Both the position numbers and the translations under genes were made by a program. From positions 1 to 26,334 of the IMG/VR virus record IMGVR_UViG_3300044712_000971: a stretch of DNA of 26,334 nt, one strand, 5' to 3'. Shown piece by piece: positions 6,504 to 23,211 of this stretch. The stretch comes from a virus. The notes under the pieces are model-generated. The model did no database searches and was not told where the DNA came from. It worked only from the letters and a program-made list of their open reading frames with translations. Every line of letters starts with the position of its first letter. Positions within the stretch are counted from its first letter, which is position 1.

Positions 6504-7079
6504 TCACGACAGCTCCACCAACTTGCCCAACGCGAACTCTGGGTAAGCGTCGATATCGATGTTCAGCACGATCTGAAAACCGAAATCATCAGCCAGCGAC
6601 ACGAGCAAGTCGCGGATACGCTTCCTGTTCTCGACACCCCGGATACGCTGAAAGGGCTCGTCAAGAACCAGCAGCCGACGAGACGGTGGCCGCGTCAGCA
6701 GGATGCTGGCAAGACGAAGAGCCAGTGAGGCTACATCGATCACCCCACCACCGACCTCTCGCAATGGATCAGTGAGCGTCAAACCACGCCGAACAAAAAC
6801 GAGCGTTGCTTCAGTCCGACCTCGCTTGCGATCGAACACGATCTTGAATTCGTAGGGATCGTCAAAGACAGCCTCCAGGCAACGACTCACGAGCGAGGAC
6901 ACCCGGCCGTGGATCTCTTGCTGCATGGCCTGGGCCACTGACTGAATCACATCCCGCGCTTCTTCGGACGCGGTCAGCTCATCATCACTCGCCATCAAGT
7001 CAGCCTGCTCAACCTTCAAGGACTTGACTGCGGCTCGGTAGTCCGCCTCCAGAGCGTCTAGCTGCTTACGGTAGCTCAT
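6504..7079 (-). CDS. Rad50/SbcC-like ATPase, C-terminal half as separate gene
   Basis: 191 residues from ATG 7079 in an ATGA overlap. Residues 1-60 are coiled coil (YRKQLDALEADYRAAVKSLK). Residues 107-120 carry the ABC signature region (REVGGGVIDVASLALR), and 136-142 carry the Walker B plus glutamate (LLVLDEP) followed by the D-loop FQRIRG. A Walker A is absent, so alone it cannot form an ATPase site; it needs the N-terminal half encoded at 10640-11662. The usual H-loop His is not obvious (VLNIDID). With SbcD (8358-9293) it should make a Mre11-Rad50-type nuclease for recombination or DNA end processing, like T4 gp46/gp47. Confidence 0.8.
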   Translation of the reverse strand: MSYRKQLDALEADYRAAVKSLKVEQADLMASDDELTASEEARDVIQSVAQAMQQEIHGRVSSLVSRCLEAVFDDPYEFKIVFDRKRGRTEATLVFVRRGLTLTDPLREVGGGVIDVASLALRLASILLTRPPSRRLLVLDEPFQRIRGVENRKRIRDLLVSLADDFGFQIVLNIDIDAYPEFALGKLVELS

Positions 7080-7306
7080 GCCTTCTCACACACCCGGCAC
7101 CGTCGATAGCGGCCCGGCCTGTGCTCCTCTTTTTGGGTACCGCAGCACTCACGACACTTGAAAATGTCGGGGTTCGTTTTGATCGTGCGCTCCAGCCCAC
7201 GGCGATCTTCCTCAGCAGCCGACTTCACTTTGTAGGGTCCGTGTGGTTGTAGACCGTAGACGCCGTCAATGATCCACCACTCCCCGTCCACACATTTCAA
7301 CCGCAT
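7076..7306 (-). CDS. Small zinc-finger protein
   Basis: 76 residues from the ATG at 7306, overlapping the HD-domain gene by ten bases; a GTG at 7324 is an alternative. The N-terminal half (MRLKCVDGEWWIIDGVYG) is a beta-rich segment. The C-terminal half has CRECC and then CRVC about 20 residues on, a Cys4 zinc ribbon. It is translationally coupled to the Rad50 C-terminal gene (ATGA), so it may assist that complex, but this is only context. The family is not recognised. Confidence 0.6.
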   Translation of the reverse strand: MRLKCVDGEWWIIDGVYGLQPHGPYKVKSAAEEDRRGLERTIKTNPDIFKCRECCGTQKEEHRPGRYRRCRVCEKA

Positions 7307-7866
7307 GGTGATGACACACCCCACCGTTGCAAAACGCCACCTGGCTCATGCCACAACGCGGCAGAGGTCCATGCGGTAGGGTGAATTCTTTTGGCGGCCT
7401 CGGTGCACAGCGTCACCTGCTCCATCGGGACACCGACCCGACCGAGATCCAATCGATCGGCATCCCAGCACGCTGCAATGGTCGGGTGTTTCGACACGAG
7501 CCCATCGGTGTGCTCGTTGCACGCTTTGGCCAAAATTGCAAAGCGTGCATCGCTGAGATGAATCAGAGCCCCTCGCCACGACTCGGCAAGCCGCGCACCT
7601 CGACGACCGTGCCCTGGATCATTGTTCTCATTGAGTCGGCAAGCGTCGTGCAACAATGCGAAGAGCCGCACCACTTCTAGATCAGCACCCGTTTCAGCAG
7701 CCAACACCTCGCCGTTACGCCATACGCGAGCCCAATGAAGAATGCCATGCGGCCCGTCCAGTGGGAGCGTATACCGACTGAGAATCTCTGCCACGATCGC
7801 CTGATAGTTGTGCTGCGACACCTGAGTTAGTTGGTCGAGCACGGGCGGACTCAAGGAATCATTCAT
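7297..7866 (-). CDS. HD-domain metal-dependent phosphohydrolase
   Basis: 189 residues from ATG 7866, overlapping the coiled-coil gene (ATGAATGA). The HD signature is visible in order: HGILHWARV (first His, about residue 43), LLHDACR (HD pair, about 73-74), CNEHTDG (His, about 118) and CWDADRLDLGRVG (distal Asp). This set binds one or two metal ions and hydrolyses phosphoester bonds, typically of nucleotides. The substrate is unknown; dNMP/dNTP or cyclic nucleotide cleavage are possible. In phages such enzymes may shape the nucleotide pool or counter signalling. It sits between components of the SbcCD-like complex. Confidence 0.75.
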   Translation of the reverse strand: MNDSLSPPVLDQLTQVSQHNYQAIVAEILSRYTLPLDGPHGILHWARVWRNGEVLAAETGADLEVVRLFALLHDACRLNENNDPGHGRRGARLAESWRGALIHLSDARFAILAKACNEHTDGLVSKHPTIAACWDADRLDLGRVGVPMEQVTLCTEAAKRIHPTAWTSAALWHEPGGVLQRWGVSSPCG

Positions 7867-8116
7867 CGTCAGCCAGGTTCTCCTTCCACTGCGCTTCGAA
7901 GTCCGCCAAGAGCGTCTCCGCCTTCTCGTCTAACTCTTCGTACTCTTCCGTCAGCGAATCGAGAAGGGTCTCCGCCTTTTCGATGGTGTCGCAATCAAAT
8001 TCATCTTTGATCGCTCGCATGTGCTGCTCAAGCGCTCCTTCAGCGCGAGCCACGGCTTCCTTCGCCGTCTTGGCCTGCTCTTTCAGATCGTTGTATTTCG
8101 TCAAGTTGACAGGCAT
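7859..8116 (-). CDS. Small coiled-coil protein, possible Rad50 arm fragment
   Basis: 85 residues from ATG 8116; GGAGGT five bases upstream is one of the best ribosome sites here. Almost the entire sequence is heptad helix: KYNDLKEQAKTAKEAVARAE, then DCDTIEKAETLLDSLTEEYEELDE and ADFEAQWKENL. The pattern with DEFDCDTIEKAETLL is very like the coiled-coil arm of phage gp46/SbcC-type ATPases. Because the N- and C-terminal ATPase halves are encoded separately on either side, this may supply the descending arm. Acidic and without Cys pairs; it cannot form a hook itself. Confidence 0.6.
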   Translation of the reverse strand: MPVNLTKYNDLKEQAKTAKEAVARAEGALEQHMRAIKDEFDCDTIEKAETLLDSLTEEYEELDEKAETLLADFEAQWKENLADDE

Positions 8117-8336
8117 CGGCTACCTCCAGGTCAAACGTAAACCGCACAATGACTCGCAACGCTTCATCGGGGCCCCTTCGATATACAAGACGACGAAGGG
8201 TTTCAACGGTCGGATTCTCTTCCCTCATGATGGCCGCGACAACCATCTCTGGCCACTCCATGAGCGACAGCCATCGCATGGCATCGGCGCGTTCCCACAG
8301 CTCCGCATCGTCTTTTGGACTGTAGGCCTGCTCCAT
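8040..8336 (-). CDS. Hypothetical protein
   Basis: 98 residues from ATG 8336, 22 bases after the SbcD stop, with an ACGGAG site upstream. The first 70 residues look like a folded helical protein (AELWERADAMRWLSLMEWPE, then VETLRRLVYRRGPDEALRVI). The last 25 residues overlap the next gene by 77 bases and are unlike the rest (polar, Ser/Arg-rich), which may indicate a recent loss of the original stop. No family is recognised. Confidence 0.45.
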   Translation of the reverse strand: MEQAYSPKDDAELWERADAMRWLSLMEWPEMVVAAIMREENPTVETLRRLVYRRGPDEALRVIVRFTFDLEVADACQLDEIQRSERAGQDGEGSRGSR

Positions 8337-8357
8337 GTGGTGAACTCCGTTTCACCG

Positions 8358-9293
8358 TCAACCAAGACATGCGTAGACGATCGATCGAACACTCCTATCA
8401 GTTTTAGCCTTGTCCATAAACCAATCGAGAGCGTCTCGGAAATTGAGCGACTCTGAGCCGAGAGCGTTCATCTCCTCGGCCAGTGCCTTCCTGACTCGTG
8501 GGTTGACCTCGTTCTCAGTGATGATCTCTTGATCGGCGTACAGGTCTTCTGATACGCGAAGATACTTCACCACGATCGACCCGTCACTCATGAGCAGCCC
8601 GTAGCGTGGGCGGTACCCAATCTCATCGCTCTTGCGGATCAGGAACGTGCCGCAGTTGATCACACTCGTGTCACCAACCGTTGCCGAAAAGCCAATGTGG
8701 TTGTCGCCGAACACCGCGGCGTCGAACCCCTTCAAGCGTTTCTTGAGCCCGGCCACCTTACCCTCGTCTGGAGCGCCGGGGTAGCTCGTGTTCTGATCGA
8801 TCCACACGTACTGGTGCACGACCGCGAGATTGATATACTCTGGTCGCAAAAACTTGTCAGACACGGGAGTGATCGGGTGGTTCCATGGGAAACCATGGAG
8901 CAATAGGTGCTTGTCCGATCCTCCAATCGCTAAAGCCAGCGGCTGCCCTGGATCGAGGTTTGTCAACACCCCAGCTTCTACCAAGTTCCAGTATGCCGAT
9001 TTCTTTATGTCCTCATAATTGTGAGCTGGTAAATCGTGTTGACCACACACGGCGTACACGTTCGCCCCCCGAAAGCAGTCAATCACCATATTCAGCAACG
9101 ATGGATAACACCACCACCTATCAAACACGTCACCCGCGACAACAATCGGCACATTGAAGTTGACCGCCTTTGATTTGATCTGATTCCACGGTCTGCGCAT
9201 AGCGTCATACCAGCTTGGTTCGTCAGACCGGAACACCGGGGGTGATTCACTGAAGTGGAGATCAGAAACAAGCAGCGCTATTGGTTTATTCAC
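8358..9293 (-). CDS. SbcD/Mre11-like metallophosphoesterase, recombination nuclease subunit
   Basis: About 311 residues. A GTG at 9293 overlaps the stop of the homing endonuclease and has GGAGAGG about ten bases upstream; an in-frame GTG at 9314 is possible. The calcineurin-type motifs appear in order: LLVSDLHF (DxH), VVAGDVFDRW (GDxxD), VCGQHDLP (GNHD-like with Gln for Asn), AVVHQYVW (His) and VFGDNHIGF (GDxHxG-like). It should use two metal ions for DNA exo/endonuclease activity, with the Rad50-like ATPase as partner. It matches T4 gp47 in role and length. Confidence 0.85.
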   Translation of the reverse strand: MNKPIALLVSDLHFSESPPVFRSDEPSWYDAMRRPWNQIKSKAVNFNVPIVVAGDVFDRWWCYPSLLNMVIDCFRGANVYAVCGQHDLPAHNYEDIKKSAYWNLVEAGVLTNLDPGQPLALAIGGSDKHLLLHGFPWNHPITPVSDKFLRPEYINLAVVHQYVWIDQNTSYPGAPDEGKVAGLKKRLKGFDAAVFGDNHIGFSATVGDTSVINCGTFLIRKSDEIGYRPRYGLLMSDGSIVVKYLRVSEDLYADQEIITENEVNPRVRKALAEEMNALGSESLNFRDALDWFMDKAKTDRSVRSIVYACLG

Positions 9294-10164
9294 GATTCTT
9301 GGGGCCTCTCCCACCTGCCCGGGTGCGTTTGAGTCTCTCTTGTTTGGCCCTCTCGGCCCCGTACATCTCTTCGTACGACTTGCCCCTATTTCGATAGGGG
9401 CCTCTCGGTCGCCGTCGCTTAGCTTGCATTTCCGGCTTCGCGTGCGCTTGTTTCGATGCCCGGCTCCGCTTTTCTTTGATCCCGGGAAGCAAGCTGTATA
9501 GCTTCAGGGAAGCAATCTTTTTCTTCCTGGCAGATTCTGTATTTACTGCTGCAATCAATCGAGCACGCACCTCTGGCTTTGCCATTGCTTTCTTCTGGGC
9601 TACGCTCTTCTTTCGCACAGTGTCTTCGCGATTCTGCGCATCCTTACACGCTTTGCTGTGTCTTTCGCGAAACTCCGCCACTTCCCAACAATCAGCAGAG
9701 AAGGCATTCCCACCGGGTCTCAAGTTGTATCCCGCTGGTGACAGCGTACCCAACTCCTGTATCTGGCTGATTTCAACAAAATCCAACAACTCGCGACGAT
9801 CGCTTTCAAAAAGAACTTCCCAGATGAATCCATCAAACCCGTATTTTCTCAGAGCACAGTGAAACGCTAGCAGTGATCCATATTTTGCGGAATGGCGGTG
9901 ATGCCTAATGCGATCATGTAAGCAACTCCGAGACTGGCCTACATACTTTTTGCCGTTTACCCTGTTAGTTGCCAAATACACGCAACCCATGGGAGATCTC
10001 CCAAAGCCCCGAACTGACGACAGAGAGATCCGACCAAGAATCTTGTCGCCAGTCGGGGCAGTTTGGTTGGGAGCGGTCTGGTCGGATCTCTCCAACGAAG
10101 ACAATACCACAAAAGGCAAAAACACTAACACCCATCCCCACAGCACGGCGAGCACCTGTGACAT
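9286..10164 (-). CDS. GIY-YIG homing endonuclease, possibly with N-terminal membrane segment
   Basis: The frame runs from ATG 10164 (TGATG overlap with the MazG-like gene) and encodes 292 residues. The first 58 comprise a hydrophobic helix (VLAVLWGWVLVFLPFVVLSSL) and a polar linker. The GIY-YIG domain starts at the internal ATG 9990 with MGCVYLATNRVNGKKYVGQ, continues RIRHHRHSAKYG and AFHCALRKYGFDGF, and has a Glu-bearing helix before GTLSPAGYNLRPGG. The C-terminal half is basic with repeated AxxKPEvR/M segments (NUMOD3-like) and GKSYEEMYGAERAKQ, a motif common in homing endonucleases. ATG 9990 may be the true start, with the upstream segment a separate or fused TM peptide. It is a selfish gene lodged between MazG and SbcD. 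Confidence 0.8.
   Translation of the reverse strand: MSQVLAVLWGWVLVFLPFVVLSSLERSDQTAPNQTAPTGDKILGRISLSSVRGFGRSPMGCVYLATNRVNGKKYVGQSRSCLHDRIRHHRHSAKYGSLLAFHCALRKYGFDGFIWEVLFESDRRELLDFVEISQIQELGTLSPAGYNLRPGGNAFSADCWEVAEFRERHSKACKDAQNREDTVRKKSVAQKKAMAKPEVRARLIAAVNTESARKKKIASLKLYSLLPGIKEKRSRASKQAHAKPEMQAKRRRPRGPYRNRGKSYEEMYGAERAKQERLKRTRAGGRGPKNRE
9990..10003 (-). promoter_or_regulatory. 14-bp palindrome at the internal homing-endonuclease start
   Basis: TGGGAGATCTCCCA is a perfect palindrome ending on the A of the ATG at 9990. It contains the GGGAG ribosome site for that start, so a hairpin would hide it from ribosomes. Hairpins over the ribosome site are a known control of T4 homing endonuclease genes. 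Confidence 0.55.
10023..10092 (-). other. Long inverted repeat upstream of the GIY-YIG domain
   Basis: Perfect 14-bp arms at 10023-10036 and 10079-10092 (GAGAGATCCGACCA and its complement) with a 42-base loop. A second imperfect pairing links GCCCCGA in the loop with TCGGGGC nearer the start (about 10006-10012), which would be mutually exclusive or nested. With the palindrome at 9990-10003 this makes a heavily structured RNA leader. Confidence 0.7.
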
Positions 10165-10637
10165 CACACAGCCCTCGGTGGCTGCTCTTGCAAGATCTTC
10201 GCGATGTCCGGCGCCTTCCACCCAGTGGGCTTTTGCCATTTTCCATCTTCGCGACGGTGAGCGTCGCCGGTGAACTTGGCCAGGTTCGATTCATCAATCA
10301 ACCTGAGCAACGGCTCTGCGTTGATGCCGCAAGCCGATAGCGTCCCCATGCTCACAACCGAGATGTCGGCACACCCGTCAGCTATCTGCACAAGGTCGGG
10401 CTCACCGCGCTCTATGAAAACTGCTTCAGAATCTGCTGCCATTGCAGCGTTCTCTGGCGCAAGAGGGTCCATGAGGTAGAAGTCGAAGCCAAGAGCGTGC
10501 ACCGTCTCGATCGCCTCTTCCAGAATCAACTTGGCACGTAGCAGGCGGGTAGGTCCGTCCGGCATGGTTGGTGACAGCGGGACCTGTTGCCCCGCCATAC
10601 GCATGAACTTCTCGACCCTCGCTTGATGATCCAGCAT
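10164..10637 (-). CDS. MazG-like nucleotide pyrophosphohydrolase
   Basis: 157 residues from ATG 10637 (a GTG at 10643 overlaps the preceding stop as GTGA; GAGGGG spacing favours the ATG). The helical all-alpha NTP-PPase motifs are visible: LRAKLILEEAIET (ExxE on one helix) and ADGCADISVVSMGT (ExxD-equivalent). The C-terminal stretch ESNLAKF, then DGKWQKPTGWKAPDIAKIL, is typical of the phage subgroup. It should hydrolyse (d)NTPs to monophosphates and pyrophosphate, for pool cleansing or against a host alarmone. It sits between the Rad50 N-terminal half and the homing endonuclease. Confidence 0.75.
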   Translation of the reverse strand: MLDHQARVEKFMRMAGQQVPLSPTMPDGPTRLLRAKLILEEAIETVHALGFDFYLMDPLAPENAAMAADSEAVFIERGEPDLVQIADGCADISVVSMGTLSACGINAEPLLRLIDESNLAKFTGDAHRREDGKWQKPTGWKAPDIAKILQEQPPRAV

Positions 10638-10639
10638 CG

Positions 10640-11662
10640 TCACAGCCCCTCAACAGGTTGGCCACACGTCTCGCACACCACCACCCCGACCGCCTCGATT
10701 TTCTTGACGATCTCGTTATACGACCGTCGCCGCTCTTCCAGTTTTGTGACCCGGTCATGCGCCGTGGCGAGGAGCGAATTCAAGGCCCCAATCCTCTTCC
10801 GCGCTTGAACGACTTTCACGATCGCCTCATCCAGCCGTCCGGTATCGGGGACCTTCCGTCGGGCCGCTGCTCTGGCTTTTCGGGCCGCCTCGATTTTCTT
10901 CGCCAACAGCTCCGATTTGCCCAGAGCGTCCATAGCCGCCCGATACGCGCGCCCCACCGCCAACAACCCCTCGTAGCGGGCTCTCTTGCGATCCATGCCC
11001 TTCAAAAGGCCCCGGACGGCCCTTATGTGAGCCTCCAGCCTGCCACGACGCTTCTGGGAGGCCCTGGCAGCCTCCTGGGCGGCCTCTACGGCCCTGTAGG
11101 CCTCTGAGGCCTCTGGGACCCAGGCTAGCCTATCCCGGGCCTCCTTGGCCTTCTTGACACGCTCCAGGAGCAAAGCCGTCCGCTGCTGGATTGATCGGAT
11201 CTTGGTGCCGATGTTGCTGAACGCCGTGTCAATCACCCCGAGGTCCACAACAGCGTTCAACTGGCGGGAGACCTCGCCCGACGACAGCGACAGCCAGTAG
11301 GCAGCGTCGTGCTGGTCCTGGAAGTTCGTCTCCGTCACACGAAGCACTTCGGCCACCCGATCAGGCACCCCGGTACCGAAGGCCTTCAGCTCGACCCCAT
11401 CGACCTCGTACGTGTTGAGCGACCCACCTCGCTTGCGAGTGATGGTGTGCCCATCGACGCGAACCTGGACCGTGGTGCCCTTCGTCCCTTCACGGACGAA
11501 CGAGTCTCCCTGGGGATTGTTCAGCGCGACCCATCGCAAGGCTCGCAGGATCGACGACTTGCCCACATCGGACGGCCCGGCGATGGTCGTGATCTTCGGG
11601 TCCAGGGGCATCTCAAATCGCGAGTGCCTCTGAAAATTCGCCAGGCGTATCAGCTCGATCAT
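10640..11662 (-). CDS. Rad50/SbcC-like ATPase, N-terminal half ending at the zinc hook
   Basis: 340 residues from ATG 11662 in an ATGA overlap with the RuvC-like gene. Residues 1-10 (MIELIRLANF) and 28-37 (AGPSDVGKSS, Walker A) plus the Q-loop TNFQDQHDA (about 112-120) define the SMC/Rad50 N-lobe. Residues about 140-325 are Ala/Arg/Lys-rich coiled coil. The protein ends VVVCETCGQPVEGL, so the zinc-hook CxxC (C330, C333) is followed by only seven residues. The descending arm and C-lobe with signature and Walker B are missing here and are found at 6504-7079. This is a complete gene, with coupled starts on both sides, not a frameshifted one. Confidence 0.85.
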   Translation of the reverse strand: MIELIRLANFQRHSRFEMPLDPKITTIAGPSDVGKSSILRALRWVALNNPQGDSFVREGTKGTTVQVRVDGHTITRKRGGSLNTYEVDGVELKAFGTGVPDRVAEVLRVTETNFQDQHDAAYWLSLSSGEVSRQLNAVVDLGVIDTAFSNIGTKIRSIQQRTALLLERVKKAKEARDRLAWVPEASEAYRAVEAAQEAARASQKRRGRLEAHIRAVRGLLKGMDRKRARYEGLLAVGRAYRAAMDALGKSELLAKKIEAARKARAAARRKVPDTGRLDEAIVKVVQARKRIGALNSLLATAHDRVTKLEERRRSYNEIVKKIEAVGVVVCETCGQPVEGL

Positions 11663-14215: not shown

Positions 14216-15583
14216 TCAATCCTCGTCGGGCCAATCGCCATCCCATTCCTCATCGTCGTCGTCATCCGCGGGCTTGGTCTTGGCCTTCGTCGCCGATTTG
14301 GACTTCGACTTCGCTGGGGGAGGGGCATCTTCGTCATCATCATCAGCCGCGTCGGTTGTGGTCGGCTTGCAATCTGCCGGATCAACCGCACGGATCTGCT
14401 CACCGTCCTCATCCAAAAGCGTCAGCGAGGTGCCGTCAGGACTGATCTTCGAAATGGTGCAGACCTTCCGCTTGTAGATGACCTCGTCACCCCGAGCAAA
14501 CGCGGGTGCCTTGCTCTTCGAAGACGGCTTGGGCTTGGCCGGAGGCGAATCGTCATCGTCATCGTCTTCTTCTTCTTCGTCCGCCGCTGGCTTCGCTTTG
14601 CTTTTCGACCGAACAGGAGGAGGAGCATCGTCATCATCATCGTCATCATCGACTGCTGGCTTCGCCTTGGCCTTCGTTTTCGATCGAGCCGGGGGTGCGT
14701 CGTCATCGTCATCGTCACCCCACTCATCGTCGGCGGGCTTTGCCTTTCGCTTTGATCTCACCGGCGGGGCGTCATCATCGTCGTCATCCGCAGGTTTCGC
14801 TTTCGCTTTTGTCTTCGAGCGAGCAGGTGGCTCGTCGTCATCGCCCTCTTCCTCATCATTATGAACACCCATATAGATGTTCTTCAGGTGGTCGTACCCC
14901 ACCTCGACAAGGAAGTCATCCAGGCAGTAACCGTGATTGACCACTTCATCCGGAAGCGCCTTCTTGCGTGGCAGGAAGTCGATCGCGGTGACCTTGTTGA
15001 ACTTGTAGGCACCACTCCCGTCTTCCTCCACCGTCAGTTCGAGCGTCAGCCCGTCTTCGTCAGGGAAGTAGAAAAGATCCCAACCCAGGTCCTCATCGCT
15101 GTTCTTGATTCGGCTGTCGAGGAGCTTGCCAAACGTGTGGTAGCTGTTCTCCAAGAGAGCCAGCTTCACCTCTTCGTTCCGCTTGCCACCGTACACCAAG
15201 AAAATCTGACGCTCTTTCGGATTGAGCGCCTTGACCTCTTCCGGATCAGCCTTCGGGTCCTTCGCCATCTTCTGCCGGATCTCTTGGATCGGGTCAGGCT
15301 TGCCGAAAGTCTTCGAAGGACAGACGTAGCTGTTCTCTTCGATCCCGATCTTTCGGTAGATGTAGAACGTCCGCTCGTAGTGCAGCACACCCGGATCAGC
15401 GAAAGGGTTGCCCTTACCCGCCTTGAACGGAATGATGCTCAGCCGGTGAATGCCCGGCGACAAATCATAGAACCCCAGCCCATCCGGGACTTTCAGGGTA
15501 GTGGTCTCGAATCCGGCGACATGCTGCTCAGCGCGTCGCCGTGCAGTCGACACCCGCTTCTCTCGTCGATCACGACTTGCCAT
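14216..15583 (-). CDS. ssDNA-binding protein (gp32-like) with repetitive polyampholyte tail
   Basis: 455 residues from ATG 15583 (MASRDRREKR), overlapping the small membrane gene by 14 bases. Residues about 25-240 resemble phage gp32-type proteins: GIHRLSIIPF, HYERTFYIYRKIG, NSYVCPSKTFGKPDPIQEIR, LLENSYHTFGKLLD. Family relatives usually have Cys where this has KPDPIQE, so the zinc site seems lost. Residues about 243-355 are repeats of Asp runs, APPxRSK and KAKAKPA. Residues about 364-407 (FARGDEVIYKRKVCTISKIS) look like a small SH3/KOW-type barrel. The last 45 residues are again acidic, ending EEWDGDWPDED, like the acidic tips of SSBs that bind partners. Confidence 0.75.
   Translation of the reverse strand: MASRDRREKRVSTARRRAEQHVAGFETTTLKVPDGLGFYDLSPGIHRLSIIPFKAGKGNPFADPGVLHYERTFYIYRKIGIEENSYVCPSKTFGKPDPIQEIRQKMAKDPKADPEEVKALNPKERQIFLVYGGKRNEEVKLALLENSYHTFGKLLDSRIKNSDEDLGWDLFYFPDEDGLTLELTVEEDGSGAYKFNKVTAIDFLPRKKALPDEVVNHGYCLDDFLVEVGYDHLKNIYMGVHNDEEEGDDDEPPARSKTKAKAKPADDDDDDAPPVRSKRKAKPADDEWGDDDDDDAPPARSKTKAKAKPAVDDDDDDDDAPPPVRSKSKAKPAADEEEEDDDDDDSPPAKPKPSSKSKAPAFARGDEVIYKRKVCTISKISPDGTSLTLLDEDGEQIRAVDPADCKPTTTDAADDDDEDAPPPAKSKSKSATKAKTKPADDDDDEEWDGDWPDED
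14507..14857 (-). repeat. Coding repeats for Asp-run / KAKAKPA units
   Basis: Five imperfect in-frame units, each an Asp run (3-8 residues, some with Glu), APPxRSK and KxKAKPA. On the plus strand this reads as TCATCGTCATC tracts alternating with GGCTTCGCTTTG-like tracts. A related sixth unit follows the SH3-like domain (about 14219-14358). Such units expand and contract by slippage or recombination. Confidence 0.8.
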
Positions 15584-15746
15584 GCTCTTCGTCTTCCTTT
15601 CTGATCTGGTATTCCAGAAATCTCTTGTGGCCCATGAGCACACCAAACGTGCCCGCCTTCATCAACACGTACACAACGAACGCCGACAGAAAGAACAAAC
15701 TGATGAATCCGACAGCGTACCGAATCTGAATCATCACCTCATTCAT
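15570..15746 (-). CDS. Small single-TM membrane protein
   Basis: 58 residues from ATG 15746, overlapping the previous stop as ATGAATGA. Residues about 8-31 (IRYAVGFISLFFLSAFVVYVLM) form one transmembrane helix. The C-terminal part (GHKRFLEYQIRKEDEEHGKS) is charged and probably cytoplasmic. A longer frame to 15899 is open but would lie within the neighbour. Its place between a recombination-mediator candidate and the SSB gene is unusual for a membrane protein; membrane attachment of the replisome is one guess. Confidence 0.6.
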   Translation of the reverse strand: MNEVMIQIRYAVGFISLFFLSAFVVYVLMKAGTFGVLMGHKRFLEYQIRKEDEEHGKS

Positions 15747-17199: not shown

Positions 17200-19668
17200 T
17201 TATGCCGAAACCCATAGACCGTTCTCTTCCTTCCACGGCGACTTGTCAAACCAACTCCGGTCGGAAACATCCACCTCGACATCAAGCGGCGTGATGATCC
17301 AGTCCCAATGCTCTCGCACCTTGACCGTCATCACCTCCCGAACGTAGTTGAGGTAGTCCTGAAGCTCTGGTTCGTACACATCCGCAAGAATTGAATCGTG
17401 GATCTGCCCCACGATCTTCGACCGCATCTTGTTTTTCTTGAGCCATGCGTTGACCTGGATCACTGACCACAGCAGGCAGTGAAACGATGGGCCCTGAATG
17501 GGCGTATTCATCAGGTTGTTGTAGCTGAAGATGCCGGGGCATACGAAACCGGTCGCCAGCGGAAACCAGCCCCGCTCAAGATACTTCTGCCACCAACGAT
17601 CTTTCGCACGAGACCAATGAGCAAACCGCTCATTGAACTTCTGCTCAACTCGCTTGATGTGCCCCTCAAACTCTTTCGCCGTGCGTATCCCCTTCGTGCG
17701 GAGATGCTCGTAGATGCCGACACCGTCTTTCGTCTTGAGCCCAGCCCGCGATATGGAAGTCCACAACCCAGCAGCCATGCTGACATAGTAGCTGCCATAC
17801 AACTCTGGGAACACGAATTGGTTTTTGGCAAAGGCCCGGCAGTCTTTGCTGACGTTGTCCACGGGCAACAGAAAGCATTCGCCAGCCATGTCGCGGTGGA
17901 TGTCTAGCTTCGGGTCAGAAGCGTAGGTGACCATCGCCGGGTCTTTCCAGAAGTTGGCCGCCCCGCGGAACTCAAGCGCCGCGTAGTCCGTTTCGACCAG
18001 CACGTGACCGTCACGAGGGATGTACGCCCGGCGTATCAGTTTTGCTTGTCGCTTGTCTCGCACCGGTTGATTTTGGAAGTTGGGCTCTGAGGATGAGTTG
18101 TGCACACATATCTCATTCGCGATGAAATTGTGATGGTCCTCGACTTCGATGTCGTACACATCAACAGCGTTCTCCAGATACTCGATTTTGGTGATGCGGT
18201 GATTATGCGGTTTGCCTGCCCTGCCATAGTGATGCCGGGCAGGTCGCTTCAGATTGCCCACAAAGCCGCGATCTAAAAGCAATCGATCCGCCTTGTCCCG
18301 CCCGATACGCAACCCACTAGAAACTGAATAGATGCTCCCATCAAACACAGACAACAACCGACCGCGAGATATGTAGACACCGTTTTTGTCATACCGATCC
18401 CGAACGACTTTCAAATCGATGCCGAGACGCTTCGCCTTGTCACGAATGCACTTAAAATCATGGCAAATGCGCGTAACTTTTCCACCAGCCTTTGACAGCA
18501 TTCGCAAAAGCCCGAATTTGGAAAAATGAATCCATTTCGGATTTTCTGGTCCGAACAACGACCAATGGCCACAAATCAGCCGTTTGGCGGTGGACGCAGC
18601 CAGCCCCCTTTTTATATCTTCGGCGGTGAGGCAGTCCCCTTGTTGCACATGCAGTCGAGAATGGTCCGCCCGACCCATCAGCTCCAGATTTTCTGGAACG
18701 TTGTTGAGATGATTCCCGTCGCGATGGTGAATCACAGCCCCAACAGGAATATCACCAACCACAGAACGATATACAAGCTGGTGATCCAACAAATCTTTTG
18801 CAACACCCGTTTGAAATATCCTGCTCCCTACACGACCCATCGCAAGAGTTCGTACTTTTGGGGCGTGCTTGCTGTCACCCTCGGCACGAAAATCCCCAGA
18901 AAGATGACGAGCCTCGACGTACTCGCCAGAGGATAAGCGGATCAAATGCTCCGGCGTCACATCTAGATGACCGTGTTTGCCCCTAGCCGACCAATGCAAC
19001 CGAACGACGTGGCGGTGCCCAGTCTTTCCGGCCCACTTCACCCGTTTCACCGTAAGATTCAAATTGTCGTCATAGCAGTAAGCCAAATCACCAGCCTTCA
19101 CGTCTTCGATCGGTATGCCTTTTGGGAACTCCCGAACGTCGCGAACCACTTCTACAAGTGTGCCTTTTGCAACACAGGACCGATACGTCCACACCAAATG
19201 CAGATTGAATGAAGGATGAATGAACCAATCGTCCCCACGCCGCACCGCAAGTCTCTGGGTACCACGAAGGAACGTATTGCGGACCTTCTTCAGCTTCTCC
19301 AGCATCGACCACTTGCGAACGAACGGGAGATCGATGCCTTCAAGCGCCTCCGCATCCGTCTTCGGCTTGCCGGTGGCCGTTCGCTCTTTGCACTCGACAC
19401 CGAGATTGCCAAATATCACCCGAGCCAACTGCTCACCACTGCCAAGCGATGCCTTCTCCCCGTAAACACGCCGCCATATTTTGTAGACCTCGTCTCGACG
19501 TAGACTAGCTTCGATCTGCTTGATTTTTTCGCCAGCACCTCTCATGGTGCGATCAACGTGTCGCATGTCGACACGGATACCGGCCTCTTCGATGTCTGCG
19601 AAGGCAGCCGAGCCCTCCATGAGCAACCGATACGCGGCGGGTGAAGAAGGCTTGAAGATCATCGGCAC
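17200..19668 (-). CDS. Family A DNA polymerase (polymerase domain only), interrupted by an intein
   Basis: 822 residues before splicing, about 462 after. The start is GTG 19668 or, in an ATGA overlap, ATG 19662. Extein residues 1-164 are the thumb/entry region, ending in TYRS. After the intein come SSSEPNFQNQP (the TGRxSSxxPNxQN motif), motif A VETDYAALEFRG (D561), motif B RAFAKNQFVFPELYG (R611, K615, Y624; the FVFPxxYG form is typical of phage enzymes) and motif C QIHDSI (H757, D758, with Ser for the usual Glu). No 3'-5' or 5'-3' nuclease domain is present; these are encoded by neighbours (19659-20858 and 12127-12966). It is the replicative polymerase. Confidence 0.92.
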   Translation of the reverse strand: MPMIFKPSSPAAYRLLMEGSAAFADIEEAGIRVDMRHVDRTMRGAGEKIKQIEASLRRDEVYKIWRRVYGEKASLGSGEQLARVIFGNLGVECKERTATGKPKTDAEALEGIDLPFVRKWSMLEKLKKVRNTFLRGTQRLAVRRGDDWFIHPSFNLHLVWTYRSCVAKGTLVEVVRDVREFPKGIPIEDVKAGDLAYCYDDNLNLTVKRVKWAGKTGHRHVVRLHWSARGKHGHLDVTPEHLIRLSSGEYVEARHLSGDFRAEGDSKHAPKVRTLAMGRVGSRIFQTGVAKDLLDHQLVYRSVVGDIPVGAVIHHRDGNHLNNVPENLELMGRADHSRLHVQQGDCLTAEDIKRGLAASTAKRLICGHWSLFGPENPKWIHFSKFGLLRMLSKAGGKVTRICHDFKCIRDKAKRLGIDLKVVRDRYDKNGVYISRGRLLSVFDGSIYSVSSGLRIGRDKADRLLLDRGFVGNLKRPARHHYGRAGKPHNHRITKIEYLENAVDVYDIEVEDHHNFIANEICVHNSSSEPNFQNQPVRDKRQAKLIRRAYIPRDGHVLVETDYAALEFRGAANFWKDPAMVTYASDPKLDIHRDMAGECFLLPVDNVSKDCRAFAKNQFVFPELYGSYYVSMAAGLWTSISRAGLKTKDGVGIYEHLRTKGIRTAKEFEGHIKRVEQKFNERFAHWSRAKDRWWQKYLERGWFPLATGFVCPGIFSYNNLMNTPIQGPSFHCLLWSVIQVNAWLKKNKMRSKIVGQIHDSILADVYEPELQDYLNYVREVMTVKVREHWDWIITPLDVEVDVSDRSWFDKSPWKEENGLWVSA
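18097..19176 (-). mobile_element. Intein with HNH homing endonuclease in the DNA polymerase gene
   Basis: A 360-residue in-frame insertion between TYRS and SSSEPNFQN. It starts with Cys (CVAKGTLVEV, block A), has block B LDVTPEHLI (TxxH) about 70 residues on, and ends with block F VYDIEVEDHHNFIAN and block G CVHN before Ser+1. Conserved C1, penultimate His, terminal Asn and Ser+1 are all present, so splicing should work. The middle has an HNH motif: IHHRDGNHLNNVPENLELM then HSRLH. The insertion point is a strictly conserved primer-template contact motif, a typical intein site. The region appears more AT-rich than its surroundings, suggesting separate origin. Confidence 0.93.
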
Positions 19669-20858
19669 AGCATCTCTTTCTTCTGCTGCCCGGCGATGTG
19701 AAATTCCACCAACGAGTCCACGCCACAGTACACAAGCAGCGTTCGCGTATCGACTTCGCGAATCCTATTGAGCCCGTTCTCATCAGTGGACTTCAGATAC
19801 GGAGCCACCGCCCATCCCCACTCCTCTTGCCCCAATCGGACGAACGCCTGGAACTTCACCGAGGTGATGTTGGGCCGACAGTCCAAATGATGAGCTGAGA
19901 CCATCGTGTCCCATACCCAATTTCGAACACCGTGGCCAAGGATTCGCCGCGTCCATCGCTCTTCGAACTTGTTGTTGGCACCCACCTTCGGCACTTTCGA
20001 TCGAAGAAAGCGACCCATGGCCTCAACAGCTTCCCCCACCCAGGGAAAAGCAATCGTGTCCCGTCCTCGCCAACAGACCGACGCACACACGATCTCAGCG
20101 TCCGCCGGATCTGGCTGTAGCCGATTGGTCTCGTAGTCGAATGCCATCGCCCCGCCATCTCGCACCCAGTCCTTCAACTGCGACGCCACCTCGCGGGGGT
20201 CCATCACAATGCGGATTTGCTTTTGGTAGTCGGGAACCTCCTCCCACGGGCGCCCTATCAACTGAAAAGCAGCCTTCAGATGCCGATCAAACCAAAGCTG
20301 CACGACAGCCCCTTCACGATCATCCTTGGCGTCTACGACATACGCGGGGTGATATGTAGGACACACCCACGCATTCATCCGCTGGAGCGGAATCTTCCAC
20401 CCGGCCCACTGCTCGATTGATCCCGTGTTCTCCTTCCACAAAGGCGACAACAAAGAAAGCACTGCCAGCGAGCCGAGGGGGATGATCAGCCGCGGCTTTA
20501 GATCGGCAAGGATCTTCGTGAGATTTGGTCGGCAGTACGAGACATGCTTAGGCGTGATGTCATCAGACGCGTTGCAAATGAGTGCGCTTGTCCGCCAGCA
20601 ATCTCGATCGAGGTTGATACCAATGAGAGCCAAAGACCGCCGCAGCAAGCGACCGGCGTCACCAGTCAGGTGATCCCCGCAGGCGTCGTCCTCAGAAGTG
20701 ATCTCATCCGAGATGATGAGCACACCCCGTCGCCCTTCCCCCATCACACCGATCTTCGGAGACTCGCAGCGCGTATAGAACCCACACGCCCCGCACTTTG
20801 GCAGCAGCGATTGCGGTGCGCCCTTCGATGCCGTTCGAGTTGCTTCGAAAAACCCCAT
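19659..20858 (-). CDS. Uracil-DNA glycosylase-like domain fused to 3'-5' exonuclease
   Basis: 399 residues from ATG 20858, one base after the clamp stop, with AAAAGGTG seven bases upstream. Residues 1-200 resemble family 4 UDG: CGAC (C22, C25), C95 and C109 make an Fe-S Cys set, GDHLTGDAGRLL matches the PF-GxAG motif, and YHPAYV is the HPxxx motif. The GEAPG loop is replaced by ISDEITSED, so glycosylase activity is doubtful. Residues about 235-390 form a DnaQ/PolA-type exonuclease: FDYET (Exo I), VGANNKFEERW (Exo II, Glu in place of Asp) and YCGVD (Exo III). It overlaps the polymerase gene and likely proofreads for it. Some phage polymerases (SPO1 type) carry such domains in one chain. Confidence 0.82.
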   Translation of the reverse strand: MGFFEATRTASKGAPQSLLPKCGACGFYTRCESPKIGVMGEGRRGVLIISDEITSEDDACGDHLTGDAGRLLRRSLALIGINLDRDCWRTSALICNASDDITPKHVSYCRPNLTKILADLKPRLIIPLGSLAVLSLLSPLWKENTGSIEQWAGWKIPLQRMNAWVCPTYHPAYVVDAKDDREGAVVQLWFDRHLKAAFQLIGRPWEEVPDYQKQIRIVMDPREVASQLKDWVRDGGAMAFDYETNRLQPDPADAEIVCASVCWRGRDTIAFPWVGEAVEAMGRFLRSKVPKVGANNKFEERWTRRILGHGVRNWVWDTMVSAHHLDCRPNITSVKFQAFVRLGQEEWGWAVAPYLKSTDENGLNRIREVDTRTLLVYCGVDSLVEFHIAGQQKKEMLCR

Positions 20859-20859
20859 G

Positions 20860-21891
20860 CTACTGCACCTTTTCGTCGTCATCCATCACAGTGCTTGTCG
20901 CATAGACGAACGAGCCCCCATCAACAAACAACTTCTCATTTGAGATACCGCATCGTTCAGACTTGCGGGTGATCTCCAGCAGCAGCTTCGGCGAGATGAG
21001 AAAGCTGATCGGCTCGCCATCAAATCTCACCCGCTTCATCTCCTTGAACCACCCACTGGCACCCTCACCTGTAACGACGATCCGATCCGAACGGAGATCC
21101 ACGCGCACCAAGTTGCCCGCCGCGTTCTCACCCGAGAATATCTCCGCTTTTGCCACCACCTCCGCAAGCCCACCCGGCAGCTCTACCGGTGTCGTGCCCT
21201 CGGCAGTGATGAAGGTGTCTAGCCTCAGGTAGTCGTCAAGGTATCGTCGGCAAGAGATGGTCAGCCCCGCCGGATTCCGAAAATGAATCCACGATGGGGT
21301 CTCACTCACCTCGGTCATGTCGAAGCCGCAAATGCGCTTGATTGACGTAGCCCGCACGAGAATCTCTTCCGCCACACCGGTCTTCAGGGGATATCGTGCG
21401 ATCTGAAACCGGTCGCACGCTTCGATGTACCGCGGGTGGATGTGGACACACGTGAGCGTGAACTGATCGGCATCCGTACTGGCGCACGAATGGACAAGGG
21501 CAATTGCCTCTGAAAACTCCTGAGGCACCCGACGCCACTTTTCTGGAGTCTCCAGGACCTCAATGTCCAGCCGCACCTTTTCTTCCATGCGGATACCGGC
21601 CTTACGGCGGCCCTTACCCCGCACGAGCAACTCGCCGTCAGTTTGCTCAATCAGGACATCATCTTCTTTGAGCTGGGACAGTAGCTCAACCAGCGGCTTG
21701 GCCTTGACGGCGCCCTCGATCAGCAGAGGCGACTTGCGACAGCACGCGACTTCGTCATTGAACGTGAAGACCTGGCCATCGGTGAACACATAACACGAGG
21801 ACTGATCGATCATCTCGCGAGAAGACAAGCCCGGGCTCACCGACTCAAGGACTCTCAGCAGTGCTTCACGCCCAACACGAACGGGTGCCAT
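20860..21891 (-). CDS. DNA polymerase sliding clamp (beta/DnaN-like)
   Basis: 343 residues from ATG 21891, AAAGGA five bases upstream. The repeated beta-alpha-beta domain pattern of the bacterial beta clamp can be followed: a first domain with FTFNDEVACC and LVELLSQLKEDDVLIEQ, a second with FSEAIALVHSCASTD and VHIHPRYIEACDRFQIARY, and a third with GLAEVVAKAEIF, RVDLRSDRIVVTGEGASG and FLISPKLLLEITRKS. The length is close to the 366-residue E. coli protein. It should form a ring tethering the polymerase and be loaded by the AAA+ protein at 16261-17190. The C-terminus is acidic (MDDDEKVQ). Confidence 0.82.
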   Translation of the reverse strand: MAPVRVGREALLRVLESVSPGLSSREMIDQSSCYVFTDGQVFTFNDEVACCRKSPLLIEGAVKAKPLVELLSQLKEDDVLIEQTDGELLVRGKGRRKAGIRMEEKVRLDIEVLETPEKWRRVPQEFSEAIALVHSCASTDADQFTLTCVHIHPRYIEACDRFQIARYPLKTGVAEEILVRATSIKRICGFDMTEVSETPSWIHFRNPAGLTISCRRYLDDYLRLDTFITAEGTTPVELPGGLAEVVAKAEIFSGENAAGNLVRVDLRSDRIVVTGEGASGWFKEMKRVRFDGEPISFLISPKLLLEITRKSERCGISNEKLFVDGGSFVYATSTVMDDDEKVQ

Positions 21892-21930: not shown

Positions 21931-23211
21931 CTATGCAGTCCGATAGGCCTCGATCACCCAGAGAGCGTTCTTCAGGTAGTGGCTCGCCGTCTCGCATGGC
22001 TTGCCAAGCAGCTTGACGAAAAGGACGTGGCCCTTCTCATCATTTGCGTTCGGCCCATACTTCTTCACCACGGCGCCAGCCACCGAGTAAGACAAGCTCG
22101 CGTCAACCTCGCCACCCAGATACGACTTGATCGCGGCCTGGGCACCAACGAGACAGACACGGGATTCTCGCGGATTGGCACGACCGTAGGCAGAGTCCAC
22201 CTTATTGACGAGCTTGTCGGTGATCTCCACATCGATACCGGCCGCCTTGAGGGTGCGTGCAGCTTGATGCCATCGCGTGCTCTTCGCGGCGGTCTTCTTC
22301 GCTGGAGCGCCTGTCAATGTCTTGCCTTCGTCATCAACAGGCACTGTCCGTACCTTTTTGGCCACCGCAGTCGGCGCGGGCAACGACTCTGGAACCTCGA
22401 TCGGTGCCGAGGTTGGCTCGGCGTTGCAGGTACGAACTCGGATCACGATCTCAATGACACCCGGCTCCGGGTTGGTCTGCTCAACTGAAAGTGGAAGGGC
22501 CGCCGCCGCAGCGACCCCTACCTGGCTACTTGGCGATGCTACGTGGCAGTCGCTATCGCCGGGCCGCCCCGCTTTGACCGCCTTGCCCTTGCCAGGCTTC
22601 TCGGCCTTGGGGGGCTCGGCAGGCTCAACATCTGCACCATCAGAAGAAGCATCGACTTCGCTGTCATCGTCATCCTCGTCTTCATCCTCGTCGCTATCCT
22701 CATCCTCATCTTCGTCTTCCGAATCGGAGTCATCCTCATCCTCATCCTCTTCATCGGAATCAGCGTCAGAATCCTCCTCATCTTCGTCTTCTTCCTCGTC
22801 GCCTACGTCATCATCCTCTTCGTCCTCATCTTCCTCCGGCTCGTCATCGCTATCTTCGCCACTCTCGTCTTCCTCTTCACCGCCGTCCTCATCATCTGCG
22901 GTCGGCTTGGTTTTGGTTTTCGCCACAGGCTTGGCAGGCGCTGCCTTCGTTTTGGCCGTCGACTTCGGTGCCGTTTCAGGCTCCTCGTCGACAACCTCGA
23001 TCGCCCCACCCGCTTCGACCTGCTTCAGCAGTGCAGCGATATCCTTCGCCACTTGTGGGTCTTTTGGAGTCGCCTTTGCGTCGTCCAGGACCTCCGGGAG
23101 CTGGCTGATTTTTGAGAGCAGCCGATCGTTGTCCCACTTGTCCCCACTTTTCCACCCAGCGTGGCTAATCACTGCGAGCACACGCGATCGACTGATCGTC
23201 AACTTGGCCAT
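21931..23211 (-). CDS. Acidic-tract protein of unknown function
   Basis: 426 residues. The N-terminal 75 (LTISRSRVLAVISHAGWKSG, then WDNDRLLSKISQLPEVLDD) form a small helical domain. Residues 80-105 are Lys/Pro/Ala-rich. Residues 106-199 are almost entirely Asp, Glu and Ser. A flexible KPGKGKAVKAGRPG linker and a beta-strand stretch (GVIEIVIRVRT) follow. The C-terminal 115 (RWHQAARTLKAAGIDVEITDKLVNKVD, SYLGG, KYGPNANDEKGHVLFVKLL, shown by short parts) form a second helical domain. It lies between helicase and clamp genes, so a replication-linked role (for instance a DNA mimic or protein tether) is possible but unproven. No family recognised. Confidence 0.6.
   Translation of the reverse strand: MAKLTISRSRVLAVISHAGWKSGDKWDNDRLLSKISQLPEVLDDAKATPKDPQVAKDIAALLKQVEAGGAIEVVDEEPETAPKSTAKTKAAPAKPVAKTKTKPTADDEDGGEEEDESGEDSDDEPEEDEDEEDDDVGDEEEDEDEEDSDADSDEEDEDEDDSDSEDEDEDEDSDEDEDEDDDDSEVDASSDGADVEPAEPPKAEKPGKGKAVKAGRPGDSDCHVASPSSQVGVAAAAALPLSVEQTNPEPGVIEIVIRVRTCNAEPTSAPIEVPESLPAPTAVAKKVRTVPVDDEGKTLTGAPAKKTAAKSTRWHQAARTLKAAGIDVEITDKLVNKVDSAYGRANPRESRVCLVGAQAAIKSYLGGEVDASLSYSVAGAVVKKYGPNANDEKGHVLFVKLLGKPCETASHYLKNALWVIEAYRTA
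22615..22896 (-). repeat. Low-complexity tract coding for about 94 acidic residues
   Basis: The plus strand is a run of TCATCCTC/TCGTCTTC-like trinucleotide mixtures, encoding GAT, GAC, GAA and GAG on the minus strand. It encodes residues 106-199 of the acidic-tract protein. The mixed codons rather than a pure repeat suggest the acidic property itself is selected. Confidence 0.85.

Follow-up and report, generated by a model that had tools for sequence, protein, structure and literature searches.

A Rad50/SbcC-type ATPase encoded in separate pieces, with the break at the zinc hook, is described here from a 26,334-base virus record of the IMG/VR database (IMGVR_UViG_3300044712_000971, positions 1 to 26,334; this whole stretch is referred to below as the window). 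Four genes, all on its minus strand and designated N, D, M and C, probably encode one Mre11-Rad50 (SbcCD)-type DNA-end-processing complex in which Rad50 is made permanently as separate chains; we put the probability of this reading at about 0.8. Gene content, conservation, motifs, lobe fold and the constant association of the four genes can be read directly from the data that follow. The split is a stable architecture and not an artefact, because the order N-D-M-C recurs among relatives, no fused open reading frame (ORF) occurs and all the closed N-halves stop by the CxxC motif. The cassette in the window consists of the following features.

10640..11662, minus strand: N, the N-half of Rad50/SbcC (lobe I with Walker A and Q-loop, then the ascending arm), 340 residues; Rad50/SbcC family matches and predicted lobe fold
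11555..11578, minus strand: Walker A, GPSDVGKS, N residues 29-36; from the sequence
10664..10675, minus strand: zinc-hook motif CETC, N residues 330-333; both Cys invariant in 138 relatives
8358..9314, minus strand: D, predicted SbcD/Mre11-like nuclease; Pfam Metallophos, E-value 2.6e-7, above the cut-off
7859..8116, minus strand: M, predicted helical-hairpin protein of 85 residues; AlphaFold2 model, constant companion in relatives
6504..7079, minus strand: C, the C-half of Rad50/SbcC (short coil stub, then lobe II), 191 residues; profile matches
6744..6758, minus strand: ABC signature, EVGGG, C residues 108-112; GGG nearly invariant in 154 relatives
6657..6674, minus strand: Walker B, within LLVLDEP, with the catalytic DE (D140 and E141 of C); both invariant in 154 relatives

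The N-half sequence ends in ...VVVCETCGQPVEGL, and its last residues, CETCGQPVEGL, place the stop codon seven residues past CETC. The original prediction, made from the window's letters and ORFs, had named an N-half with Walker A that ends in this way, a separate C-half with the signature and Walker B, and an SbcD partner and an 85-residue coil gene between them, and all four are found where it had put them. Its argument that coupled starts speak against an assembly error has also held: four-nucleotide overlaps (N with RuvC, MazG with N, and C with the preceding gene) indicate tightly coupled starts, and the same split recurs among the relatives described below.

Recurrence of the split cassette

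Loci were collected by searches of virus contigs with both halves and by alignments of C-halves; profiles of N, D, M and C were built from the first loci, and all ORFs were scored against them. After removal of duplicates the set comprised 156 loci, nearly all of them IMG/VR contigs; the window and Bacillus phage vB_BboS-125 are among these loci. The order N-D-M-C on one strand was found in 140 of these, while another 14 hold the downstream part alone (DMC in 7, MC in 4, C in 3), which is consistent with contig ends. The remaining two are L138, with the order N-M-C-D, and vB_BboS-125, whose divergent M was missed by the profile. M and C overlap or lie at most 20 nucleotides apart in 90 of 152 loci, and other genes often intervene between D, M and C.

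No ORF joining any two of N, D, M and C was found in the 156 loci, nor was a long ORF with both Walker motifs flanking CxxC found in any locus retrieved. Every N-half with a stop codon (142 of 142) carries CxxC, 2-42 residues before its end (median 6; 90% within 15), which extends to the whole set the ending close to the hook that had been noticed in the window. A second, complete SbcC, which the original prediction had named as evidence that would count against it, did not appear: in 13 relatives of 40-100 kb, contigs that may be incomplete, no second Rad50-type ATPase was detected, Pfam AAA_23 giving one match over its cut-off per contig, and the matches whose coordinates were compared (L004, L006 and L053) are the N-halves. 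In the PHROGs database N (16465, 1499), C (15167) and one divergent M (18563) belong to separate families with no link between them.

Several records of Firmicutes carry the same genes in other arrangements. Plasmid p3 of Bacillus velezensis has N-M-C-x-D and Alkaliphilus has D-N-M-C, while plasmids of Paenibacillus thiaminolyticus and Aneurinibacillus encode a fused D-N protein, which stops about 20 residues past CPVC and is followed by M and C as separate genes. The natural D-N fusion ties N physically to D, and these plasmid records show that N, M and C can be contiguous and colinear with the Rad50 chain. These gene products bear the annotations AAA family ATPase, ParA, metallophosphoesterase or hypothetical protein.

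A genome scan bearing on the host returned only two contigs of metagenome-assembled genomes, assigned to a Thermoplasmata archaeon and a WWE3 bacterium, and we claim no host. The Thermoplasmata contig (L080/L111; QMSR01000001.1) is apparently identical to an IMG/VR cassette contig of equal length and is probably mis-binned or a host-linked virus. In vB_BboS-125 (NC_048735.1) an unannotated stretch shortly past the C-half gene gp35 holds an SbcD-like ORF of 326 residues (L038:9238-10218). Microbacterium phage Magritte (OR553905.1; L039:6001-7053 and L258:284-934) has a hook-less split, with an N-half lacking CxxC (gene 155) and a C-half (gene 2); the two genes lie far apart, at 93.8 kb and 0.4 kb in the record.

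Motifs and predicted folds of N, C and D

Among the 138 relatives compared, G29, G34 and K35 of Walker A, Q117 of the Q-loop and both Cys of CxxC are invariant in the N-half, and the hook reads CPxC in most of them. The AlphaFold2 model of N (mean predicted local distance difference test score, pLDDT, 88) consists of a lobe and three arm helices (residues 141-178, 182-267 and 275-324); the link between lobe and arm is of low confidence, and the helix limits are compatible with either a straight or a folded-back arm. The predicted lobe has the Rad50 lobe I fold, with 3aux, 3av0_B and 1f2u_A among its top matches in the PDB and VIA-align Z-scores of 11-14 against Rad50, SMC and RecF heads.

A profile of C relatives searched against the PDB ranked lobe II of Pyrococcus furiosus Rad50 first (3qkr_B, E-value 3e-12; also 1ii8_B and 1f2t_B). 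Across the 154 C-halves GGG is nearly invariant and the catalytic DE invariant, as listed above. In the window's clade the signature Ser is replaced by Val and the H-loop His by Asp (C residues 108-112 and 172-176); most C-halves outside that clade retain Ser or Ala in the signature and His in the H-loop.

The calcineurin-type motifs of D are conserved in 145 D proteins (D12, H14, G55 D56, G85 x H87 D88, H161, and G197 D/H198 N H200), the metal ligands D12, H14, D56, H87, H161 and H200 being kept at 98-100%. In motif V, Asp replaces the first His in 84% of members, and the same change has been described in Mimivirus R555 (Yoshida et al. 2011, PMC3175470).

Protein M and the length of the arm

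M is matched exactly once in 152 of the 156 loci, and in 145 of those 152 the match lies no more than 1 kb from C. The loci that lack it by profile are L018, L093 and L101, which are short or begin near C, and vB_BboS-125, where a coil protein of 78 residues (gp34), too divergent for the M profile, occupies the M position. AlphaFold2 predicts M to be an antiparallel helical hairpin (helices 3-40 and 45-83; pLDDT 94.7) and not a single long helix. The sequence is weakly conserved, with G27 kept at 95% and few further positions. At the hairpin tip of the window's M lies a Cys (residue 42), which is kept in 64% of relatives. Foldseek with M retrieved one viral protein of 82 residues and like shape (34% identity, TM-score 0.8, E-value 0.03) and nothing convincing in the PDB; a tblastn search against phages gave no match, the low-complexity filter possibly masking M. 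The likeness to a gp46 arm that had been claimed for M was not confirmed, as no significant match to gp46 or to any SbcC family was obtained. The Firmicutes M proteins resemble phage M in size, gene position and helix-turn-helix pattern.

The arm of N, measured from the end of lobe I to CxxC, falls into discrete classes of 139-150 residues (26 proteins), 177-204 (97) and 218-241 (12), followed by single values of 257, 268 and 298, with no arms of 151-176 or 205-217 residues. The increments are of about 43 residues in one group and about 47 in another, and extra copies of a VPD...L...LxxLI module are visible in the long arms of L010, L041 and L050. The lengths of M (about 80) and C (about 190-205) are constant in every class. 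Mean-field direct coupling analysis of helix pairing within the N arm and within M did not recover its positive control, the M hairpin, and its result was discarded.

Gene neighbourhood in the window

Two further genes lie between N and D in the window.

10164..10643, minus strand: MazG-like pyrophosphohydrolase, between N and D; family matches
9286..10239, minus strand: free-standing GIY-YIG homing endonuclease, between MazG and D; family matches

Both are local insertions; 79 of 141 relatives have N and D overlapping or at most 20 nucleotides apart. The nearest full relative (L004) leaves about 0.5 kb between these two genes, enough for MazG and too little for the GIY-YIG endonuclease.

The surrounding genes of the window encode a RecA-like protein, RuvC, a 5'-3' exonuclease, a PolA-type polymerase with an intein and a clamp loader. 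The polymerase gene (17200-19668, minus strand) encodes a DNA polymerase of family A, interrupted in frame by an intein that bears an HNH domain (Pfam DNA_pol_A, HNH_3 and Intein_splicing). It is overlapped by a gene (19659-20882, minus strand) for a uracil-DNA-glycosylase domain followed by about 200 residues resembling a 3'-5' exonuclease domain, and the proofreading domain of the polymerase seems to be on this separate protein. Two proteins with long Asp/Glu-rich repeats are encoded at 14216-15646 and 21931-23211 (both minus strand), the first of which gives no match in Pfam and occupies the position expected for the single-strand-binding protein in the replication block.

Proposed mechanism

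In the complex that we propose, N would provide the lobe with Walker A and the Q-loop together with the ascending arm, bearing the CxxC hook at its free C-terminal end, and C would provide the lobe with the signature and Walker B together with a short descending stub. N and C would form one ABC head, two of which would close upon binding ATP. Zinc shared by two N ends could retain bridging by the hook without continuity of the arm, while D would be the nuclease, seated at the root and cutting there. The M hairpin, encoded beside C, would most likely pack on the N arm and the C stub and so brace an open arm that has no continuous descending strand. Alongside its RecA-like, RuvC, 5'-3' exonuclease and PolA-type neighbours, the complex would process phage DNA ends for recombination-dependent replication; this role fits the gene neighbourhood and is the one that gp46/gp47 serve in T4.

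A more specific form of this proposal is tentative, and we give it somewhat less than even odds. It would be an open-arm Rad50, in which the hook is a free chain end, arm modules of 43-47 residues can be added while the other chain stays as it is, and the M hairpin is a subunit that closes or opens the arm. If true, this would amount to a modular, possibly gated multi-chain machine of the SMC type.

Several points weigh against the proposed complex. The assembly of the chains, the pairing of hooks, the placement of M and the role of the nuclease are what we infer from gene content, conservation and predicted structures. M has no significant match in Pfam, PHROG, NCBIfam or the PDB to gp46 or any SbcC arm, coiled coils being hard to place by sequence. 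The profiles of phage M and Firmicutes M match each other weakly (hhalign probability 7%), and the two may be analogues. The Val in the signature and the Asp in the H-loop mean that ATP use may differ in the window's clade, as far as sequence can tell. Finally, some of the N arm must either lack a partner, pair with itself or with a second N, or bind several copies of M.

Alternative explanations

The alternative that survives best, though we consider it unlikely, is that M is a separate small protein, such as a regulator or another helper in replication, whose only tie to the ATPase is genetic linkage. The lack of any detectable relation to known arms and the weak conservation outside G27 (95%) are in keeping with this idea, as are the other genes that often part D, M and C; however, M is present as one match in 152 of 156 loci, beside C whatever the gene order, and Firmicutes have a coil protein of equal size in the same place.

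Slightly less likely still is that M supplies the descending arm that is missing, as an extended helix that would lie antiparallel to the N arm and lead on into the C stub; the canonical two-stranded arm of Rad50 would then be rebuilt from three chains. In the Firmicutes plasmids and in L138 the genes adjoin one another in an order colinear with Rad50 (N-M-C), M is nearly always near C, and M (about 80 residues) plus the coil of C (about 45) approach the shortest N arms (139-150). Against this stand the confident prediction of a hairpin and the stepwise growth of the N arm from 139 to 298 residues with M and C fixed in all classes; because neither lengthens with the N arm, M and the C stub are unlikely to make up a full descending arm. 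We therefore regard M as more likely a short partner or brace of the arm than its descending strand. The original prediction, which had combined a split Rad50/SbcC with an SbcD partner and the coil gene as a candidate descending arm, thus stands as to the cassette, with M as its companion in 152 of 156 loci, and is not supported as to M as that arm, M being a predicted hairpin of fixed length.

It is quite improbable that N and C act separately, with N, for example, forming a zinc-bridged tether together with D, and C serving another partner as its ATPase lobe. The Magritte halves, far apart and with an N that lacks CxxC, would suit such an arrangement. ABC ATPases require both lobes, however, and Walker A is found on N alone and the signature and Walker B on C alone, both sets being conserved together.

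The idea that this contig shows no more than an artefact, a frameshift or a gene in decay can be dismissed: although the window is a metagenomic fragment with a homing endonuclease between the halves, and such insertions are able to break genes, conservation has already refuted this explanation. More than 150 non-redundant contigs share the split, as do the complete records of a Bacillus phage and of several plasmids; catalytic residues are retained in both halves, and N and D touch in many relatives.

Comparison with known systems

Rad50 split at the hook is a large, previously unrecognised group in phages and some Firmicutes plasmids; no description of a split Rad50/SbcC was found in the literature searched, which left most subscription papers and all bioRxiv preprints outside its reach. 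The existence of this group explains why, in many phages and plasmids, a core complex of recombination has stayed hidden under unrelated annotations (exonuclease, ATPase, ParA, hypothetical). Current models of Mre11-Rad50 and SMC proteins assume a single unbroken chain that climbs from the head to the hook or hinge and returns. In this widespread natural version the chain is cut precisely at the hook, which suggests that the Mre11-Rad50 machine can dispense with such continuity. Chains that can be mutated separately also offer a simple system in which to ask what the arm and hook transmit to the head.

Separate lobes have been seen before in the engineered catalytic-domain crystals of Rad50 (1f2t/1f2u), where lobes I and II likewise form one head as separate chains. 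Those chains are man-made and have neither arms nor hook, whereas the split described here is natural and keeps the arm and hook on N. In the window, a mobile GIY-YIG endonuclease lies between the pieces, as in phage genes split along with homing endonucleases, for example the phage ribonucleotide reductases. Yet fragmentation by a mobile element fails to explain the present form, because N and D touch in over half of the relatives and the break is always at one structural point.

Fusions of Mre11 with Rad50 are a further parallel, in that D is joined to Rad50 as in the D-N proteins of the Paenibacillus and Aneurinibacillus plasmids. For Anaerostipes and Bacillus phage 0305phi8-36, the available passages of an earlier report note that the fusion lacks one of the ATPase segments (Yoshida et al. 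2011, PMC3175470). No separate gene is given for the missing half in those passages, whereas here it is a separate neighbouring gene, accompanied by M. A split into separate genes may offer an explanation for the segment missing from these two fusions.

The closest relatives remain Rad50/SbcC with Mre11/SbcD, such as P. furiosus Rad50, Escherichia coli SbcCD and T4 gp46/gp47, which have the same motifs in lobes I and II, a calcineurin-type nuclease partner in the operon and a recombination neighbourhood. The CxxC zinc hook is likewise common to the split system and to cellular Rad50/SbcC. Unlike the single-chain proteins, however, the split system consists of two or three chains. Its N-half stops at the hook, and there is next to no descending arm; it has a hairpin protein of its own, M, and its N arm varies in length while the C-half stays the same. 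One polypeptide with matching arms on either side of the hook, by which Rad50 is defined, was found in none of the 156 loci. We rate the split system as one that works like Rad50 and yet falls outside its single-chain, two-arm definition, so that it does not simply file under Rad50/SbcC.

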